The notes under the pieces were generated by a model, which searched no databases, was not told the DNA's origin, and saw only the letters and a program-made list of their open reading frames with translations. Positions 49,356 to 60,433 of a stretch of 64,000 nucleotides of DNA are shown here, piece after piece. The stretch's first letter is position 1. Each line of letters starts with the position of its first letter. The stretch covers positions 1 through 64,000 of the forward strand of contig JAEEHM010000093.1 in the NCBI GenBank assembly GCA_016280895.1. The letters run 5' to 3'. Made by a program: the position numbers and the translations under genes. This stretch comes from Bacillota bacterium (GTDB lineage Bacteria > Bacillota_I > Bacilli_A > ML615J-28 > CAG-698).

Positions 49356-49889
49356 ATGATTATTTTACCATTTAAAGTATTAAAAAAACATTGTATTGTA
49401 CACCTCTTGTGGTTTCTATTTGTGCCAGTAATATCATCAATTGGTTTAATATTTAATTTAATGAATTCAAATATGCCACAAGTAGTAGAAGATATTGGGA
49501 TAGGATATTTTTATATTATTTCAATAGCATTAATTTGCTCAAGCATTTATGATATTGCAGTGTGTTTTTATGAATTTGTGATTGAAAAACGTAAAGATAC
49601 ATTTATGGTATTTAAATTATGGTCTTTTTTTGTACTACTAGTTCTTATTATTCCAACTATTCTATTTCAAACTACTAAGATAGGAGATTTATGGCCTATA
49701 CAATTCGTTTTATTTGTTATAGTATGTTTTATATCTTTCTATGTAAGGTTAGTATTTAAAATGGATACATATTTAAATGAAGATGGTGACTATCTGCTTA
49801 AAGAAAATGAAGATATTGAGAAACTAAAAAAGAATCTAAGAAAGGGAAACAATCCATCGGCTCCTGATGGAACAAATATAAAAGTATGA
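49356..49889 (+). CDS. Hypothetical multi-TM membrane protein
   Basis: About four hydrophobic segments; 4-bp ATGA overlap with the DGQHR gene; MIILPFKVLKK start 49356. Confidence 0.7.
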   Translation: MIILPFKVLKKHCIVHLLWFLFVPVISSIGLIFNLMNSNMPQVVEDIGIGYFYIISIALICSSIYDIAVCFYEFVIEKRKDTFMVFKLWSFFVLLVLIIPTILFQTTKIGDLWPIQFVLFVIVCFISFYVRLVFKMDTYLNEDGDYLLKENEDIEKLKKNLRKGNNPSAPDGTNIKV

Positions 49890-50965
49890 AAAAAATATAT
49901 TTGATTAAAATTAGTCAGCCCATTGGAACTTTTTATTGTGGCAAGATTTTCAGTGATGATTTAAAAATTATAGCCTCTCCTCAGAAGAGAGATAATACTG
50001 GCGGAATTCAAAGACGTTTAAGAGCTGAGAGGATAAAAGATATTTCTCAGTATTGCGAAGATCCAGATGCAACATTTCCCACTCCAATTATTATTGCAAT
50101 AGACGAAAGCAATAATCTTAAAAAGTTGGAGAATGATATTTTTGAATATGATTTAGATATGAATGAAAAAATTCATGCCGAAATTCTCGATGGCCAACAT
50201 AGATTGTACGGAATAATTGATTCTAAAAAGAATATAGAGTTGCCAATAGTAATTATGTTTAATTTAACTGAAGAAGAAAAAGCATATATTTTTTCAACAA
50301 TTAATAGTAATCAACAAAAAGTTGATAAATCACTGATATATGATTTGTTTGAGTTAAGTAGAACAAGAAGCCCATATAAAACTTGTCATGAATTAGCAAG
50401 ACTCTTTAATTCAAATAACAGCTCTCCATTTTATGGTAGATTAAAAATGTTGGAAACTAGGGAGTCAGAAAATGAAACATTATCACAAGGGACATTTGTT
50501 AGATATGTTTTAAATTTGGTTACTGATAATCCACAAAAAGATTATATAGATTTGAAAAGTGGGAAAAGAATAAAATATGAAAACGCAAGTTGTCCTTTGA
50601 GATACTATTTTTTGAATAACCAAGACGAGGTAATCTACCTTATTTTATCAAATTGTTTCAGCGCCGCCAAAAATGTGTTTAGAGAAGAATGGGATAACCC
50701 AAAAAGATATATTTTGACTAAAACAACAGGTTTTGGAGGAATTGTCAAGTTTTTAAAGAGCGCTTTACCTATGATATTTAAAGGGTCGAAAGATTTGACC
50801 ATTGCAGCATTTGAAAAAATCTTTAAAAATGTTAAAAATGATTTTTCTATTCAACATATAGTTTTAACTTCTTCCTTTTTTCCACCTGGTGAAATGGGCG
50901 AAAAAAAGCTGGCTGAATATATAAATAATGCTTTTATCAAATTATTGGAACACAATGAAATCTAA
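49886..50965 (+). CDS. DGQHR-domain protein (DndB/DpdB-like, ParB-like fold)
   Basis: [36 protein letters not shown]. Confidence 0.85.
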
Positions 50966-51209
50966 TAGTGATAACTTTAGAGCATCTTCAATACAAGGAG
51001 TAATGAAGAGAGTAAAAGCTAAAGGAGTAAAGGTAATAATATATGAACCAACACTAGAAGATGGAAGTGAATTCTTTGGATCTGTTGTTGTAAATGATTT
51101 AAATAAGTTTAAATCATTATGTGATTGTATTATAGCTAATAGATATGATTCTTGTTTAGATGATGTAGAAGATAAAGTTTATACAAGAGATTTATTTAGA
51201 AGAGATTAA
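50952..51209 (+). pseudogene. 3' fragment of UDP-glucose 6-dehydrogenase (ugd'), copy 1
   Basis: [45 protein letters not shown]... Ugd C-terminal domain; near-identical to 54266-54520. Confidence 0.88.
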
Positions 51210-51350: not shown

Positions 51351-52439
51351 ATGGATTATGATTTATTAGTTGTAGGAAACGGGTTTGATTTGGGATCTAA
51401 TTTTAAGACAAGTTATAAAGATTTTTTAATATATGAGGGACAAAAAGGTATTACTAATCCTTTGATTTCATTTTTGTCTAGCGCTTATAATAAGAATTAT
51501 TTTGTTAATGAAGATTGGAACGGCTTTGAAAAACTAATTTGTCAATATCTTCAATTTATAGCGTATTGTTTTAGTGAAAACGAAAATATAGAAACGTGGT
51601 TTTCAGAAGCTGAACCAGATGGATTTGGCTCGTATGGTCATAGATTTTACTACTGGAAAATTAAAGATATTAGAAAGATACCTAGTAATATTTTTTTAAT
51701 AATTAATCTACAAAATCCGCTAGATAGACTTATGTGGATATCTACGGAATCAAATTTTATATCCAGCTTTGCTGGTGCAGATTCGTACTCTTCTTTGAAA
51801 GAATTATATTTTAGAGTACGTATTTGTGCTAATAAAGTTAATGCTACAAAAGAATATGCTATGAATTATATATTAGACGAATTTAATGCAGAATTACTTC
51901 GTTTAGAAGAAGAATTACAAAATTATATTAAGATTTCTACTGATCAAATTAAAGCACCAGCATTAATTGCTAATCACAAACCTCATAGAATTGTTTCATT
52001 TAATTATAGTGAAACAGCACAAAAGTATTATGGCCTTGATGAAGAGCATATTGCATATATTCATGGAAAGGTATCGACAAATGTCGTCATAGGTGTAGAA
52101 CCATCAATGATACAAAATCAAACATTTGATGAGGAATCTAATTTTATTAGGTTTTTTAAACGCTTTAGACGCATTTATAAAAACTGTAATAGTGATTACA
52201 ATAATAAAATAATAAATCAACTGCCTAATAATTCTATAATTGCAGTCTTTGGGCACTCCCTTGATTTATCTGATAAGTCAATTTTAAAACCGCTATTTGA
52301 AAAACGATATAAACAATATGACATATATTGTTATGGAAATAAAGAGGTTTACGAATTGAAATTATCAAAATTGATAGGACTTGATTTATTAGATGAATTA
52401 TATAATGATAATAAGATAAATTTTATTGAAGTTAATTAG
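51351..52439 (+). CDS. AbiH-family abortive infection protein
   Basis: DYDLLVVGNGFDLGSNFKTSYKDFL; RIVSFNYSETAQKYYG; YIHGKVS; IAVFGHSLDLSDKSIL. Confidence 0.85.
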   Translation: MDYDLLVVGNGFDLGSNFKTSYKDFLIYEGQKGITNPLISFLSSAYNKNYFVNEDWNGFEKLICQYLQFIAYCFSENENIETWFSEAEPDGFGSYGHRFYYWKIKDIRKIPSNIFLIINLQNPLDRLMWISTESNFISSFAGADSYSSLKELYFRVRICANKVNATKEYAMNYILDEFNAELLRLEEELQNYIKISTDQIKAPALIANHKPHRIVSFNYSETAQKYYGLDEEHIAYIHGKVSTNVVIGVEPSMIQNQTFDEESNFIRFFKRFRRIYKNCNSDYNNKIINQLPNNSIIAVFGHSLDLSDKSILKPLFEKRYKQYDIYCYGNKEVYELKLSKLIGLDLLDELYNDNKINFIEVN

Positions 52440-52467
52440 TATTATTTCTATATATAAATTGAAATTA

Positions 52468-52812
52468 ATATCATAGAACCAATTGAAGTATTTGATTGTC
52501 ATAACTTTGAAGCAAGATCTTATTTAATATTAACTGATAGTGGTGGAATACAAGAAGAAGCACCAGCATATGGTGTACCAGTATTAGTAATGAGAGATAC
52601 TACTGAAAGACATGAAGGAGTACAAGCAGGTACATTAAAAACTAGTAGGAACATCTGAAGAAGTAATATATAATGAATTTACTAAACTTCTTAATAATAA
52701 AGAAGAATATGCTAAAATGGCAAAAGCAGTAAATCCATATGGAGATGGACATGCTTGTGAAAGAATTGCTGATATTCTAGAAGGAAAAGAATATCAGGAG
52801 TGGAAGAATTAA
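52468..52812 (+). pseudogene. 3' fragment of mnaA/wecB-type UDP-GlcNAc 2-epimerase, frameshifted
   Basis: NIIEPIEVFDCHNFEARSYLILTDSGGIQEEAPAYGVPVLVMRDTTERHEGVQAGTLK then frameshift to GTSEEVIYNEFTKLLNNKEEYAKMAKAVNPYGDGHACERIADILEG. Confidence 0.92.
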
Positions 52813-52872: not shown

Positions 52873-53064
52873 ATGACATTTTATGAAATTATTTCAGTTG
52901 TTTTAGCTAGTATTAGTTCTTTGGTCGCGATTTTATCTTTTATTTTTAGTTTTAAAACTAAAAAGAAATATGATAGTTTCATGAAGTCACAGTTGAAAAT
53001 TGATAAGAACGCTGGTGTTGCTGTAGGTGTTAATAATGGTGAAGTCAATGTCAAACAAAAGTGA
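52873..53064 (+). CDS. Small single-TM protein with C-terminal AVGVNNGEVNV motif
   Basis: 63 aa: TM segment (IISVVLASISSLVAILSFIFSF) then KNAGVAVGVNNGEVNVKQK; overlaps next gene by 17 bp. Confidence 0.75.
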   Translation: MTFYEIISVVLASISSLVAILSFIFSFKTKKKYDSFMKSQLKIDKNAGVAVGVNNGEVNVKQK

Positions 53065-54115
53065 TATTTCTACTAACAACGGCACAGCTGTTGGAGTCAA
53101 TAATGGTGAGATTAACATACAAAATGGTCTAACTTTAGAAGGATTAAGACCTTATATTGAAGAAGTTGTTTGTTCTGAGATTGAAAAATACAAGAATAAA
53201 GCCCTTGAAACAGCAAGATTACGTGATGGCGAGTTCGTAGTTTCAGTATTTGACAAGTTAAACAAATTGGAAACTAAGATTGAAAAAGTCCAAGAAGCCT
53301 TATCATCTCCATCAATGCAGTTTGATTTATTAGAAGCAGAAAGGGGATATATTAAAACAGGAAGCCAGTCTTTGCTGAATATTTTGGGAGAATTAATTGC
53401 AGAAAGAGTTAATTGTAATGAGGCGACTATTAAACAAATAGTACTTAGTGAAGCAATTAAGACAGCTCCTATTCTCTTGGATAAGCAACTTGATATTTTG
53501 GCGTTGAGGTTTATTATTTCAAGAACGAGCCTTCCTGGAACTAGAACATTAAAACAATTGATTTCTTTTCTTAAAGAAGATGTGTTACCTTTTTGTTCTA
53601 GAGTAAATAAAATAGATAGAGTAGATTTTGAACATCTTGATTATACTAGGTGTTCAATAAAGAGCGTTATGTCTACTTCGCTATACACTATTTTGTGGCA
53701 CAACTATACTTCTGCTTTTTATGTGCCATTTTCTTCTGATTTATTAAAGATGGAACTTATTAATGGCAAGAACTTATATGAGTGGTATCCTGAAGTGTTT
53801 ATTAACGATGGAATAAACACATTAACATTTAGAAAGAATAATTATTCGGAGTTTTCAAATCAATTAAATGAAAGGAAGGATATACCTGAATCTGTTAAAA
53901 ATAAAATGATTACATTTTATAAAACCCATTGCATCGAGGAAAAGAAAGCATTTGATTATCTATTGAAAAATGCACCTGAATTGGAGCCGATAAATGAAAT
54001 GTGGGATAAAGGAGTTTCATCGATTGTTTTAAGTTCAATTGGACTAGCTATAGGAGCCATTCATATTAAAAATAATGTAAATTCATATATTGATTTAGAC
54101 ATTTGGATTCATTAA
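53048..54115 (+). CDS. LPO_1073/Vpar_1526-like protein with N-terminal AVGVNNGEINI motif
   Basis: N-terminal STNNGTAVGVNNGEINIQNG; body LLEAERGYIKTGSQSLLNILGELIAERVN...IVLSEAIKTAPILLDKQLDILALRFII; track start 53027. Confidence 0.7.
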   Translation: MSNKSDISTNNGTAVGVNNGEINIQNGLTLEGLRPYIEEVVCSEIEKYKNKALETARLRDGEFVVSVFDKLNKLETKIEKVQEALSSPSMQFDLLEAERGYIKTGSQSLLNILGELIAERVNCNEATIKQIVLSEAIKTAPILLDKQLDILALRFIISRTSLPGTRTLKQLISFLKEDVLPFCSRVNKIDRVDFEHLDYTRCSIKSVMSTSLYTILWHNYTSAFYVPFSSDLLKMELINGKNLYEWYPEVFINDGINTLTFRKNNYSEFSNQLNERKDIPESVKNKMITFYKTHCIEEKKAFDYLLKNAPELEPINEMWDKGVSSIVLSSIGLAIGAIHIKNNVNSYIDLDIWIH

Positions 54116-54157
54116 TAATAAAAATTCGCCAAGTATTGATAAGAGTATATGATAATT

Positions 54158-54520
54158 GTTGAATTTAATAGAAATAGAAAAGATCATATAGCAGATGCAG
54201 TACTTGCAAAAGCCGGATTTACTGAAAAGAATGCTAATAAGATAACAATAGGATTATTTAGATTAACAATGAAATCTAATAGTGATAACTTTAGAGCATC
54301 TTCAATACAAGGAGTAATGAAGAGAGTAAAAGCTAAAGGAGTAAAGGTAATAATATATGAACCAATGCTAGAAGATGGAAGTGAATTCTTTGGATCTGTT
54401 GTTGTAAATGATTTAAATAAGTTTAAAAAAGAATGTAATTGTATTATAGCTAATAGATATGATTCTTGCTTAGATGATGCCGAAGATGAAGCTTTCACAA
54501 GATTTTTTAAAAGAAAATAA
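54158..54520 (+). pseudogene. 3' fragment of UDP-glucose 6-dehydrogenase (ugd''), copy 2
   Basis: [50 protein letters not shown]...; 160/162 nt identical by eye to 50952-51113. Confidence 0.88.
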
Positions 54521-54787: not shown

Positions 54788-56872
54788 ATGGACACATTTA
54801 AATTTGATGAATACAAATATGAAAATGATTACGAATTAATTGAAGTAATAAATGAAAATGTATGTATAAATAAGATAGAAAAATTTTTTAAAAATAATAT
54901 TGAAAATTTTGAGTTTGAAACGATATTATCTATTATTATTTGCAAAAGCGAAGGCTTTTCATTTTTAAAATCAAAAGGAGTGTTTAGAGTTTTTGATAAT
55001 ATTAATAATTCTTTACATGTATTTGATTTATTAGAAAGACTGTTAAAATTGAAAAGTAGGATTAATATCGATGAGATATATATAGAAATGAAACTTGAAT
55101 TCAAAAAAATCGTAGAACCAATTAAAAGAAAAATAGATAAGTATACGAATATTGCACTGCATTACAAAGAATTTGCAATACTTGATATTATGTCAATTTG
55201 TGCAAAAAAACAGGACTTGATTAGCAATAATTTAAAATCTAAAATTAAAAATATCAATTTCGATTCTAAAGAAATAAGTTTTGTAGATTATTGTAATGGC
55301 GCATCTATATTTATAAGTCTTTTATGTGAACAATCAAATATGTTCAAAAGTAATACTAAGCACTTATATGCTGATAGAGATTTTAATATTGAAAAAAGTC
55401 TCATTTTTTTTAATAAGTTATATAAATTAAGAGAATATGAAATTTATATTGACTGCTTTGGATTCAAGGTGTGTAAAAATAATAATACATTTACCTTATC
55501 TTCACCAAATAAGGATTTGATGAAATGTATAAGTTGTTGTACAATTTTATCTTTTTTTGAAAGAATGAACTCAGCTTACTATACAAGAGATTTTTCAGGT
55601 ATTAGCTTTTCTGAATTTGTTAATAAAGATAAAGAGTATAAACTAGATAAAATCATAAAAACTGAATATAAGGATAACTTCAATTATAAAAGATATGTAT
55701 TTTCTATAACTAATTTATTTGGAAAATTGTTTAAAGAAAACTTTTTATTTAAGGAGGAAATGACTATTCTTGATGCACTGGCACGTGAATTTGTTGTTCC
55801 AGAAGTAAAATTGCTTAATATGAAATTTAGAAATAATTTGAATATTTGGGATGTTTTCAAATTTAAAAGAATTTTTGATTTGTGGAACGAAAAAATAAAA
55901 AGATTAGAATTTTCTGATAATTCTATTTATTTCAATACAGTTTCTCAAAGGCTAAAACGCTCTGATTTTAATCTTTTATTCAAATATCTATATGACAATG
56001 AAGAGAAAATAACTGATATGATTGAAATGATGAACTTTAACGCAGCAAATTCTATAAAGGATATTTTGTATAGCCCTTTTGTAGTTTTAGATGATTTTGT
56101 ATATTTTTCTCCGATTTTAGTTTCACAATCTAATATTCCAGGAAACTGTATTTCCGTAGCTAAGTATAAATCTTTGAATGATGAAAACTATAGGATTATA
56201 AATAATAGAAATGAATATGTTGAAGAATTATTAAGAAAAGTTTGCGAGCAAACTAATATTAAATGTAGAGTTGGGGAAATGGATTTTTCGTATAGAGGTA
56301 TAAAAAGTGATATTGATGTTTTACTATATAATGATGACTATATGATAATTGTTGAATGTAAGTCACCAACAGCTTCTACAAATGCATTTGAATTAAGAAA
56401 AATTTATTCATATTTAGAGAAGGGCGCTAAGCAACTTGATTTATCTCTTAAGGCGATGCAGGATGATGACTTTTATAAAAATAAAATGCATGAGTGGAAC
56501 ATACCTATTAGAAAAAGGAAAATATATTCATTGATTTGTAATGCGCAACGAGAGTTTAATGGTATTTTTATAAACAATCATCCCGTTAGATCTGTTAAGG
56601 AAATGTGTAATTATCTACTTGATGGAACAATAATAGTTTCAAATAATGAATATGTTGTTAGAACAAATGATGATGTTTTTGAATCGCTTATAGAATATAT
56701 TGGAAATAATAGTTTTATTTTTAAGGTGCTTGATTCATTGACTGAGTATAAAGAAATGTTTCATATTGAAAATAAGAAATTTGAAATGGAGAACTTTGCA
56801 TTAGATGCTCGAAATTTGGATTCAATTTTATCAAGAGAGTATGAAAAACTAGAACAATCAAAAATTAAATAG
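54788..56872 (+). CDS. Large hypothetical protein with C-terminal PD-(D/E)XK-like nuclease domain
   Basis: GIKSDIDVLLYNDDYMIIVECKSPTAS...LEKGAKQLDLSLKAM; inside defence island. Confidence 0.7.
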   Translation: MDTFKFDEYKYENDYELIEVINENVCINKIEKFFKNNIENFEFETILSIIICKSEGFSFLKSKGVFRVFDNINNSLHVFDLLERLLKLKSRINIDEIYIEMKLEFKKIVEPIKRKIDKYTNIALHYKEFAILDIMSICAKKQDLISNNLKSKIKNINFDSKEISFVDYCNGASIFISLLCEQSNMFKSNTKHLYADRDFNIEKSLIFFNKLYKLREYEIYIDCFGFKVCKNNNTFTLSSPNKDLMKCISCCTILSFFERMNSAYYTRDFSGISFSEFVNKDKEYKLDKIIKTEYKDNFNYKRYVFSITNLFGKLFKENFLFKEEMTILDALAREFVVPEVKLLNMKFRNNLNIWDVFKFKRIFDLWNEKIKRLEFSDNSIYFNTVSQRLKRSDFNLLFKYLYDNEEKITDMIEMMNFNAANSIKDILYSPFVVLDDFVYFSPILVSQSNIPGNCISVAKYKSLNDENYRIINNRNEYVEELLRKVCEQTNIKCRVGEMDFSYRGIKSDIDVLLYNDDYMIIVECKSPTASTNAFELRKIYSYLEKGAKQLDLSLKAMQDDDFYKNKMHEWNIPIRKRKIYSLICNAQREFNGIFINNHPVRSVKEMCNYLLDGTIIVSNNEYVVRTNDDVFESLIEYIGNNSFIFKVLDSLTEYKEMFHIENKKFEMENFALDARNLDSILSREYEKLEQSKIK

Positions 56873-57340: not shown

Positions 57341-60300
57341 ATGAACGAAATAGGTTCGATTTGGAGAAGGTGGGATTTTCATGTACATACGCCATACTCT
57401 CTATTAAATAATGAATTTGGTGATTGCGATGATGAGGAAATTTGGGATAAATATGTTCACACATTATATGTGAAAGCAATTTCACTTTCAATAGGTGCTA
57501 TATTTTTGACAGATTATTTTATTATAGAAGGTTATGAGAAAGTAGTTTCCATTATAAAAAATCAAGAAAGAATGAAAAAAATTTTTGCGAATGAAATTAA
57601 AAAGGATTCTAATTTTTTAACAAAAGTAAATAAAATAGCAATTTTTCCTAATATAGAATTTAGAACGAGTGATACAATTAATCAAAATAAAGTACAAGTG
57701 CACGTCTTGTTTTCTAACGAATTAGCATCTAATACGATAAAAAAATATTTTTTGAAAATGTTATATTGCGATTTATCTGGAAATAAATGGTATTGTGATT
57801 TAGATGACTTAAAAAAACTTGGTGAATATTGTGATGAACGTGGAATTGGCAATTTGGTTGGGCACAATCGTTTAAAACTTGGAATGAATAATTTTTCAGT
57901 TAAAATTGATGATGTCAAAAAATATTTAGAAGATAAAAGATTTGAAGGAAAATACATTATTGTTAGTGTCGTAGAAGACTTGGATACACTTAATTGGCAA
58001 AATCAATCTGGTAGCTTGAGAGTAAAATATCGACAATTAAGTCAAGCGGTTTTTACCTCAAATGATAATAATATAAAATGGTTTAAATCTGAAGAATGCG
58101 AAAAAACCATAGGTAAAACTTTGCCTTGTATAACTGGCTCTGATTGTCATAATTTTGAAGATATGTTTGAATCAAATAATTTGAAGTATTGTTGGGTTAA
58201 ATCTGACACAACTTTTAGAGGACTAAAAGATTCTTTAAAGAATTCGGAAGAAAGAATTTATATTGGTGAAAAACCAATTGATATTGCTTTACAAGAAAAA
58301 AGAAAATCATATACGATAAAATCTATAGACATATATACTGACAGTTTAGAATCACAAAAACATTGGATAAATGGACACCTTGATTTTAATCCAGGAATGA
58401 TATCAATAATTGGAAATAAAGGAAGTGGTAAAAGCGCTATTTCTGATATTATATCTTATCTTGGTAACACTTCAAAAGAGTCATATTTTTCTTTTTTGAG
58501 ACGCGATAGATTTTTTGACAAAACTAATAAATACGCAAATAATTACAAAGGATATTTAACGTTTTATGATGGTGCTAAAACTGAGGAAAAAATAATAAAA
58601 GAGAATGGCTACGATTCAGAAAAAATTGAACGAGTCATGTATTTACCACAAAGATATATAGAAAATACCTGTAATGACATTAATAGAACCTATTTCAAGA
58701 ATGAAATCGAAGGTTTAATCTTTTCATATATCGATGATCTAGATAAAAATGGCTGTAAGAATCTAACAGAATTAATTAATAAGAAATTTTCAACAATCAA
58801 TATTGAAATAGAGACTTTAAAAGTTAAAATTAATGACATAAATAAGGATATTGTAGAAAAAGAAAGAAAGTTAACATTAGAATTTAGAAACCACTTAAGT
58901 TTGAATAAGCAAGAAATTTTGCAAAAAATTGAAAATCATAAAAGATCTAAGCCTGAACAAATAGAAAAACCATTATTAGATGACAATAACAAGTATTTGA
59001 TTTTATACTCAAGGTGTAGCCAGTTGAAAAAAACTGTTCTTGAAGATCATAATATGGAGTATACAAAATACGAAAAAATAACTGATGAACTCAATTCTAT
59101 AGATTATATTATTAATATCGAAAATGAAGTAAAAAAACGAATTATTGAATTAAACAATTTGTATAAAAACCATAATGATCAATACAATTTGGACATTAAT
59201 TGTGAAGTATCATTAGTAAAGAATGAAGAAAAAGAATTTAATGAGTATTATAAGAGATTAAACGATGATCAAGCTAAATTAAGGGAAAAATTGGTAAAAA
59301 TTGACAATGAAAGTTCTATTTATGATATTGACAACACAAAGTATGAAGAAATTGAAAATAAAATAAAACTGATTTCTAATTACTTTGCGAAAGAAGCTGC
59401 CATAGACGAAATATTTGAAGAACTATCAAAAAAAATATCTACGCAGCAAGCTCAATACCAAGCAAATCAAGAAGAAATTAAAAAATGGGATTTAATTGAT
59501 TATGGTCTTAAAAACGGAAATAGTATAATTCCATATGAGAACTCTCTAAAAGGAATACAAACCCAAATCGATTATGTAAATAATGAATTACCAAATGAAA
59601 TAAACAAGCTTAAAAATAAGCAAATTGAATTAATAAATGAACTTTATGAAAAACTTGTTTTGAAAAGAAATTCATTAAGAGAATTGTACGAGGCTGTTCA
59701 AAACAAAGTAAATAGTGTACTGGAAGATGGACTTGATAAAATGACATTTGATTCAGTAATTGCATTTGATTCTGCCCTTATAAAAAAGATTGATATGATG
59801 GTTAACCATCGAGTGTCTTCGAAGTATTCTGATTTATCATATTTAGAGAATATAGTTCCTAAAATTGATTTTAATGACAAACAATCAACGATTTCATTTA
59901 TAAAAGAACAATTTGGTAATTTATGCAACGATCTTAACTGCTTTTATAAAAATATGTTAAAGGATAATAATCAGGTTGATTTTTATAATCTATTATCTAA
60001 ATTGGATTATTTAAGTGTTCAATATGATTTAAAGATGAATAATAAGGCCTTGGATCAATTATCGCCTGGCGAAAAAGGAATAGTCTTATTAATCTTTTAC
60101 CTTGCATTGGATAAGGGAAATAAAACGTTAATTATTGATCAACCAGAAGATAATTTAGACAATCAGTCTATTTTTGAGAGATTAACAAAATTAATAGTGA
60201 TGGCAAAGAAAAACAGGCAAATAATCGTGGTGACACATAATCCAAATATAGCAGTAGCTTGTGATTCTGAGCAGATCATATACGCATCAATTGATCAAAA

Positions 60301-60433
60301 CACAAATAAAATATCATATGAATCTGGTTCAATAGAAAACCCGACAATATCAAAGCATATTGTGGATGTTTTAGAAGGAACATTACCTGCATTTTGTTAT
60401 CGAGAATCTAAATATGATGTAGGTGATAAATAA
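57341..60433 (+). CDS. TrlF/Ppl-like PHP-domain AAA/SMC-type ATPase
   Basis: GSIWRRWDFHVHTPYSLLN PHP motif; Walker A IIGNKGSGKSAISDI; coiled coil; QLSPGEKGIVLLIFYLALDKGNKTLIIDQPEDNLDN. Confidence 0.87.
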   Translation: MNEIGSIWRRWDFHVHTPYSLLNNEFGDCDDEEIWDKYVHTLYVKAISLSIGAIFLTDYFIIEGYEKVVSIIKNQERMKKIFANEIKKDSNFLTKVNKIAIFPNIEFRTSDTINQNKVQVHVLFSNELASNTIKKYFLKMLYCDLSGNKWYCDLDDLKKLGEYCDERGIGNLVGHNRLKLGMNNFSVKIDDVKKYLEDKRFEGKYIIVSVVEDLDTLNWQNQSGSLRVKYRQLSQAVFTSNDNNIKWFKSEECEKTIGKTLPCITGSDCHNFEDMFESNNLKYCWVKSDTTFRGLKDSLKNSEERIYIGEKPIDIALQEKRKSYTIKSIDIYTDSLESQKHWINGHLDFNPGMISIIGNKGSGKSAISDIISYLGNTSKESYFSFLRRDRFFDKTNKYANNYKGYLTFYDGAKTEEKIIKENGYDSEKIERVMYLPQRYIENTCNDINRTYFKNEIEGLIFSYIDDLDKNGCKNLTELINKKFSTINIEIETLKVKINDINKDIVEKERKLTLEFRNHLSLNKQEILQKIENHKRSKPEQIEKPLLDDNNKYLILYSRCSQLKKTVLEDHNMEYTKYEKITDELNSIDYIINIENEVKKRIIELNNLYKNHNDQYNLDINCEVSLVKNEEKEFNEYYKRLNDDQAKLREKLVKIDNESSIYDIDNTKYEEIENKIKLISNYFAKEAAIDEIFEELSKKISTQQAQYQANQEEIKKWDLIDYGLKNGNSIIPYENSLKGIQTQIDYVNNELPNEINKLKNKQIELINELYEKLVLKRNSLRELYEAVQNKVNSVLEDGLDKMTFDSVIAFDSALIKKIDMMVNHRVSSKYSDLSYLENIVPKIDFNDKQSTISFIKEQFGNLCNDLNCFYKNMLKDNNQVDFYNLLSKLDYLSVQYDLKMNNKALDQLSPGEKGIVLLIFYLALDKGNKTLIIDQPEDNLDNQSIFERLTKLIVMAKKNRQIIVVTHNPNIAVACDSEQIIYASIDQNTNKISYESGSIENPTISKHIVDVLEGTLPAFCYRESKYDVGDK

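Follow-up and report, generated by a model that had tools for sequence, protein, structure and literature searches.

Matched terminal motifs in a membrane peptide and its LPO_1073/Vpar_1526 family partner suggest a candidate amyloid-type defence module

Introduction

The closest described systems to the gene pair considered here are the amyloid signalling motifs associated with bacterial NLRs (BASS 1-10; Dyrka et al. 2020), among which BASS3 is the RHIM/PP-like motif family (PMC8086366, PMC12261475). Motif signalling has also been described for RHIM (RIPK1/RIPK3) and for the fungal PP motif (HELLP/PNT1), and the output of HELLP and MLKL is membrane attack (PMC12881547). Here, we analyzed a 64,000-nucleotide stretch of DNA from a Bacillota bacterium (contig JAEEHM010000093.1 of assembly GCA_016280895.1; hereafter the window), in which the gene for a 63-residue membrane peptide overlaps that for an LPO_1073/Vpar_1526 family protein and the facing termini of the two products carry the similar motif AVGVNNGE. 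An earlier note, made from the sequence alone, had proposed that they form an amyloid-type signalling pair in which the family protein templates polymerisation of the peptide at the membrane during phage infection. We found that such matched termini are a general feature of split loci of this family and that they co-diversify, so that a pair-specific coupling of the membrane peptide to its helical partner is well supported.

Results

A matched motif at the facing termini of two overlapping genes

The features of the window are shown in Table 1. The peptide has a single predicted transmembrane (TM) helix with a hydropathy peak of 2.57, and ends in the motif IDKNAGVAVGVNNGEVNV. Its stop codon (53062-53064) lies inside the second gene, giving a 17-bp overlap; the mechanical listing of open reading frames (ORFs) puts the second-gene start at a GTG at 53027, and the likely start is the ATG at 53048, from which the partner begins with MSNKSDISTNNGTAVGVNNGEINI and carries the motif ISTNNGTAVGVNNGEINI. 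The two motifs are identical at 12 of 18 positions. When the full-length proteins were aligned, the Smith-Waterman score was 71, compared with a mean of 30 and a maximum of 52 in 2,000 shuffles. Thus, the two ORFs, their overlap, both motifs and the number of identities are as the earlier note had described them, and the shuffle test supports the match. Half of the identical residues (6 of 12) are encoded by different codons, so the similarity does not come from a fresh DNA duplication but is old and held at the protein level. Chance (ruled out by these shuffles and by the permutations across loci given below) and recent DNA duplication were therefore both rejected as sources of the match.

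The second gene had been called LPO_1073/Vpar_1526-like, and it is indeed a genuine member of NF045477 (172.6 bits against a cut-off of 45, with model positions 1-257 covered); it also matches PHROG_19542. The NF045477 model starts at about residue 26 of the partner, directly after the motif, and the paired motif thus lies outside the model. The window peptide had no PHROG match.

Table 1. Features of the gene pair and its surroundings in the window
Feature	Position	Strand	Evidence or remark
Membrane peptide, 63 aa	52873..53064	+	ORF listing; TM helix at about residues 6-24, then a juxtamembrane stretch rich in Lys and the motif at the C-terminus
C-terminal motif of membrane peptide, IDKNAGVAVGVNNGEVNV	52999..53052	+
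LPO_1073/Vpar_1526 family partner (putative sensor), 355 aa	53048..54115	+	NF045477, PHROG_19542, AlphaFold2
N-terminal motif of partner, ISTNNGTAVGVNNGEINI	53066..53119	+
AbiH-family phage abortive infection protein, adjoins pair	51351..52439	+	PF14253, E 3.7e-28
242-bp direct repeat, left copy, 3' end of UDP-glucose dehydrogenase gene	50952..51193	+
242-bp direct repeat, right copy, 93% identical	54266..54507	+	UDP-glucose dehydrogenase fragment ORF 54149-54520
Fragment resembling a UDP-GlcNAc 2-epimerase, apparently broken; lies between AbiH and pair	52460-52811		Read by eye
DGQHR/DndB-like protein (DNA phosphorothioation-associated DGQHR type)	49886-50965		Adjoins a 180-aa membrane protein
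694-aa protein	54788-56872		IDVLL...IIVECK resembles the core of PD-(D/E)XK nucleases; HSDR_N_2 match weak (E 0.019)
TrlF-family ATPase, next to the 694-aa protein	57341-60433		With the 694-aa protein, possible further defence unit

Occurrence of the split pair

Relatives were collected by tblastn, scans of viral contigs, a single scan across genomes and searches of whole genomes with the family model. Including the window, 15 distinct split loci were identified in Bacilli, Clostridia, Gammaproteobacteria and a gut phage scaffold, and hence in at least two phyla. Such loci were recovered from a Clostridia metagenome-assembled genome (G417, locus L018), whose receptor (that is, the LPO_1073 partner) and peptide ortholog are 68% and 67% identical to those of the window, respectively, from an Escherichia coli P2-like prophage and phage-plasmid (L002 and L011), a Pantoea plasmid (L009), the gut phage scaffold (L010, with a truncated LPO_1073 gene), viral contigs (L017, L027, L030, L034, L067, L074 and L076) and whole genomes (L080, L081 and L082). 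The genome-wide scan, which used tightened patterns, returned L018 as its single relative, so that chromosomes outside Bacillota are thinly sampled. Weak matches below the cut-off (L085, and L003, L083 and L084, which were examined at the level of reading frames) were excluded from the count, as was the P. vagans locus L065, which is degraded (its partner is not intact and its N-terminus is altered).

In all 15 split loci, a protein of 62-93 aa with a hydrophobic N-terminal part is encoded directly upstream of LPO_1073, at an intergenic distance of -17 to +9 bp (13 loci measured). Gamma-type peptides mostly have two hydrophobic helices and Bacillota peptides mostly one; the L082 peptide fell below the hydropathy threshold used, although a Gly-rich hydrophobic stretch is present in its sequence. 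PHROG_27656 is the family of most gamma-proteobacterial membrane partners tested. It was also observed that the tail of the membrane peptide in L010 (1215-1496) contains two motif copies.

Co-diversification of the paired motifs

Both partners carry the motif in each of the 15 split loci, and the best alignment always joins the C-terminus of the peptide to the N-terminus of LPO_1073. A motif on one partner only, which the earlier note would have read as evidence against such a pair, was seen in none of them. The motif is AVGVNNGE in the window and L018 and QAGRDVNI in most gamma loci; peptide and LPO_1073 read GYQAGRDI and SYQAKRDI in L034, QADVIKEVVI and QADHISGLTI in L076, GISGGKNS and GISSGDNS in the Pantoea plasmid, QKAGKNSTQSQIGSVTI and QKAGDNSQQLIVESMSI in L082, and TQIGVQNNF and TQIGQQNNY in L080, where a QIGxxN core of RHIM type is found in both partners. 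These motifs are short, rich in Gly, Asn and Gln, and in nearly all cases free of proline.

The RHIM core is [IV]Q[IV]GxxN. The L080 sequences TQIGVQN and TQIGQQN contain QIGxxN but have T at the first position of this core, and in the window motif the part that aligns with QIGxxN is AVGVNN (TAVGVNN and VAVGVNN in the two partners), without the Q. The earlier note had likened VGxNNG to RHIM/PP-like cores; most subtypes lack the full core, and the Pfam RHIM and PP models gave no match up to E 10.

The mean score between cognate C- and N-termini was 53.1, compared with 29.0 for non-cognate ones, and no mean as high as the cognate one arose in 300,000 permutations (p ~3e-6, 15 loci; the test takes no account of phylogeny). 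When each subtype was represented by a single locus, the true pairing ranked first among all 5,040 pairings, and cognate matching was also found within the eight gamma-type loci (p 0.006). Different codons are used for 79 of the 146 identical paired residues (13 loci), that is, for about half of the identities, so the match is kept at the protein level. The covariation that the earlier note had offered as a check was therefore observed, apart from weak matching within the QAGRD subtype (see Discussion). On these sequence comparisons, there is strong evidence that a motif subtype is common to both partners of a pair, whereas evidence that closely similar pairs could discriminate among each other is weak.

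Search for the motif outside the pairs

When 2.9 million viral contigs were scanned with a DNA pattern encoding QAGRD[IV]N[IV], chosen from the motif alone, 10 stretches were returned, 4 of which were this pair. A profile of nine motif copies was compared with 300 genomes, and E < 0.01 was reached only at both copies of the L018 pair; it should be noted that the profile contained the family's own copies, including the L018 sequences. Many matches near E 0.2 were short and partial. The possibility that the motif has spread through unrelated proteins was rejected, as this single locus was below E 0.01 in the 300 genomes. As a separate observation, a single chain in L029 (368-1285) has a TM segment, then QAGRDVNI and then a domain of ~250 aa, so that the motif is not confined to LPO_1073 pairs.

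Predicted structures and members without a membrane-peptide partner

The AlphaFold2 model of LPO_1073 (13 sequences; mean pLDDT 82, pTM 0.76) consists mostly of helices from residue 30 onwards, and its motif is modelled as short low-confidence strands (residues 6-9, 12-15 and 23-25). The peptide is modelled as one helix (residues 3-43) followed by a disordered motif tail. Comparison of the LPO_1073 fold with PDB and BFVD gave no significant match, and a profile search of solved structures gave marginal matches only. Neither NB-ARC nor NACHT was matched in the receptors.

Members of the family without a membrane-peptide partner lack the motif and have a hydrophobic segment of their own: L020 begins with a hydrophobic helix (MEPLSLIALSAVIGGAAGKF...), and L021-L024 have an N-terminal TM segment followed by a long, disordered-looking linker. 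Thus, the motif pair takes the place of a covalent link from a membrane segment to LPO_1073.

Genomic context

Several loci, from independent lineages, lie in anti-phage contexts, namely type I restriction-modification operons, the P2 hotspot and the neighbourhood of AbiH and TrlF, as expected for the defence module that had been proposed. L080 and L081 are each flanked by hsdS and hsdR within a type I restriction system whose hsdM gene lies upstream, and the fused L020 directly follows hsdM-hsdS-hsdR. The E. coli pair L011 (5069-6181) is directly flanked by the replication endonuclease gene and the portal gene, in the P2 gpA-gpQ locus. This (tin/old) locus is a proven anti-phage hotspot, and its systems include some with TM proteins, for example the AC1 TIR system; no mention of the present pair was found in the available parts of these accounts of P2 hotspot systems (PMC9122126, PMC9519451). 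The pair is rare in E. coli, being full-length in 6 of 5,426 genomes.

The window pair is found inside a polysaccharide locus, with AbiH, the DGQHR protein and the TrlF ATPase as neighbours. The 242-bp direct repeats flank AbiH, the epimerase gene fragment and the pair, and resemble a scar of the recombination that brought defence cassettes into the polysaccharide locus. The neighbouring reading frames place L018 in a polysaccharide locus as well. L082 adjoins a class II tRNA synthetase gene and showed no defence signal, and neither window protein was matched by the PADLOC models.

Discussion

Proposed mechanism

We propose that the pair may be a two-gene, membrane-acting defence module, in which the soluble, helical LPO_1073 protein would be the infection sensor and the small membrane peptide the effector. 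In the resting state, both motifs would be flexible tails. Upon infection, the LPO_1073 body would oligomerise or expose its N-terminal motif, which could then, together with the matching C-terminal tails of the membrane peptides, nucleate a common beta-arch or cross-beta assembly. Such an assembly would cluster the TM helices and compromise the membrane, and the infected cell would stop. The steps of this explanation differ in strength. That the motifs bring the two proteins together is very probable from the sequence comparisons. A role in phage defence, suggested by genomic context, appears likely. Homotypic beta-arch or cross-beta stacking, to which the mutual similarity, the composition and the L080 QIGxxN core point, is favoured slightly, as is the assignment of LPO_1073 as trigger and of the peptide as membrane effector. 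Membrane damage as the output could equally be right or wrong, and to the switch as a whole we would give about an even chance.

Several results weigh against this explanation. Cognate matching was weak within the seven QAGRD-type loci (p=0.047; p=0.16 by core identities), which suggests that partner specificity there may be loose. The motif was modelled at low confidence (pLDDT ~50), in monomer models only, and the Pfam amyloid-motif models matched neither protein. Since the LPO_1073 fold has no match in PDB, the sensing role is a guess. In addition, the Vpar_1526-type members L022-L024, which are directly beside galU, apparently represent a housekeeping branch.

Alternative explanations

The main rival is plain membrane anchoring of LPO_1073, in which the motifs would dock constitutively and with no amyloid, as a plain beta-type complex that is one-to-one or small, the peptide would be a mere anchor, and LPO_1073 itself would be the effector or sensor. 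The membrane peptides indeed consist of little beyond a TM segment and the motif, the genes overlap or nearly touch, which suggests matched synthesis, and the TM or hydrophobic helix at the N-terminus of the partner-less L020-L024 is what anchoring predicts. However, a constitutive anchor needs no duplicated, mutually similar motif, and similarity between partners is a hallmark of homotypic stacking; the RHIM-type core of the L080 version and the composition of the motifs, including their near-constant lack of proline, also speak against simple docking, which we consider unlikely.

Small TM peptides are common toxins, and the second rival is a toxin-antitoxin system in which LPO_1073, as antitoxin, would hold the toxic peptide via its matched tail until infection perturbs LPO_1073 and frees it. 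An antitoxin would have no need of the hydrophobic segment that LPO_1073 carries when it stands alone in L020-L024, and no membrane peptide without a partner was found, although this is weak evidence from a narrow search. Thus, in spite of the small TM peptide, the toxin-first and overlapping gene order and the defence-locus context, this alternative seems improbable to us. Finally, the similarity might have arisen as a by-product when the gene junction underwent tandem duplication or recombination, and the motifs would then have no functional pairing. This can practically be dismissed: the window motifs do lie within ~120 bp of each other and the motifs are similar in every locus, but the similarity is kept across several subtypes with co-divergence and with about half of the identical residues in different codons, so that selection holds the proteins together.

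Comparison with known systems

Regarding the amyloid-type switch itself, the part of the earlier proposal that stands is that matched termini are general to the family and co-diversify; the features of the known amyloid-signalling pairs, namely NB-ARC or NACHT in the receptor, a Bell domain in the effector and a Pfam amyloid motif, are not found here. NF045477/PHROG_19542 and PHROG_27656 are families listed without function, and no functional description of LPO_1073 or of the pair was found in the literature searched, where the one paper to name either founding protein is a Veillonella outer-membrane proteome. The proposed module would give LPO_1073/Vpar_1526 (PHROG_19542/27656) a concrete, testable function, and the naturally diversified motif pairs could be used for measuring the specificity of cross-seeding. 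The pair occurs in at least two phyla and in proven or probable defence loci, including easily tested E. coli prophages. More tentatively, such pairs might represent a widespread class of two-component immune switches, in which a helical sensor that is NLR-free and nucleotide-independent would seed the amyloid-type polymerisation of a bare TM peptide directly, a generalisation that we hold somewhat less probable than not. If this is true, no smaller amyloid-signalling circuit for cell death would be known, and a fast-diversifying motif of 15-20 residues would encode the partner specificity.

The split and fused members of the family parallel the alternation between amyloid-linked and all-in-one forms described for fungal NLRs (PMC12881547). 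At the level of the pair, the logic is shared with BASS motifs and RHIM/PP signalling. Regarding RHIM/PP, QIGxxN is present in both L080 partners, the full core is lacking in most subtypes, and the Pfam models gave no match. The likeness to BASS lies in short motifs that match between the C-terminus of one product and the N-terminus of the product of the adjacent gene, and that are diverse and paired within loci. In contrast with the NLR receptors of BASS, however, the receptor here is the mostly helical LPO_1073, and the effector side is a bare TM peptide with a motif rather than a Bell-domain protein. On sequence grounds, the pair would therefore work as amyloid-signalling pairs do, without being classed as a BASS member: amyloid signalling in bacteria is known from NLR-Bell pairs, whereas the present pair combines matched motifs of this kind with a partner other than an NLR and an effector as small as can be conceived.
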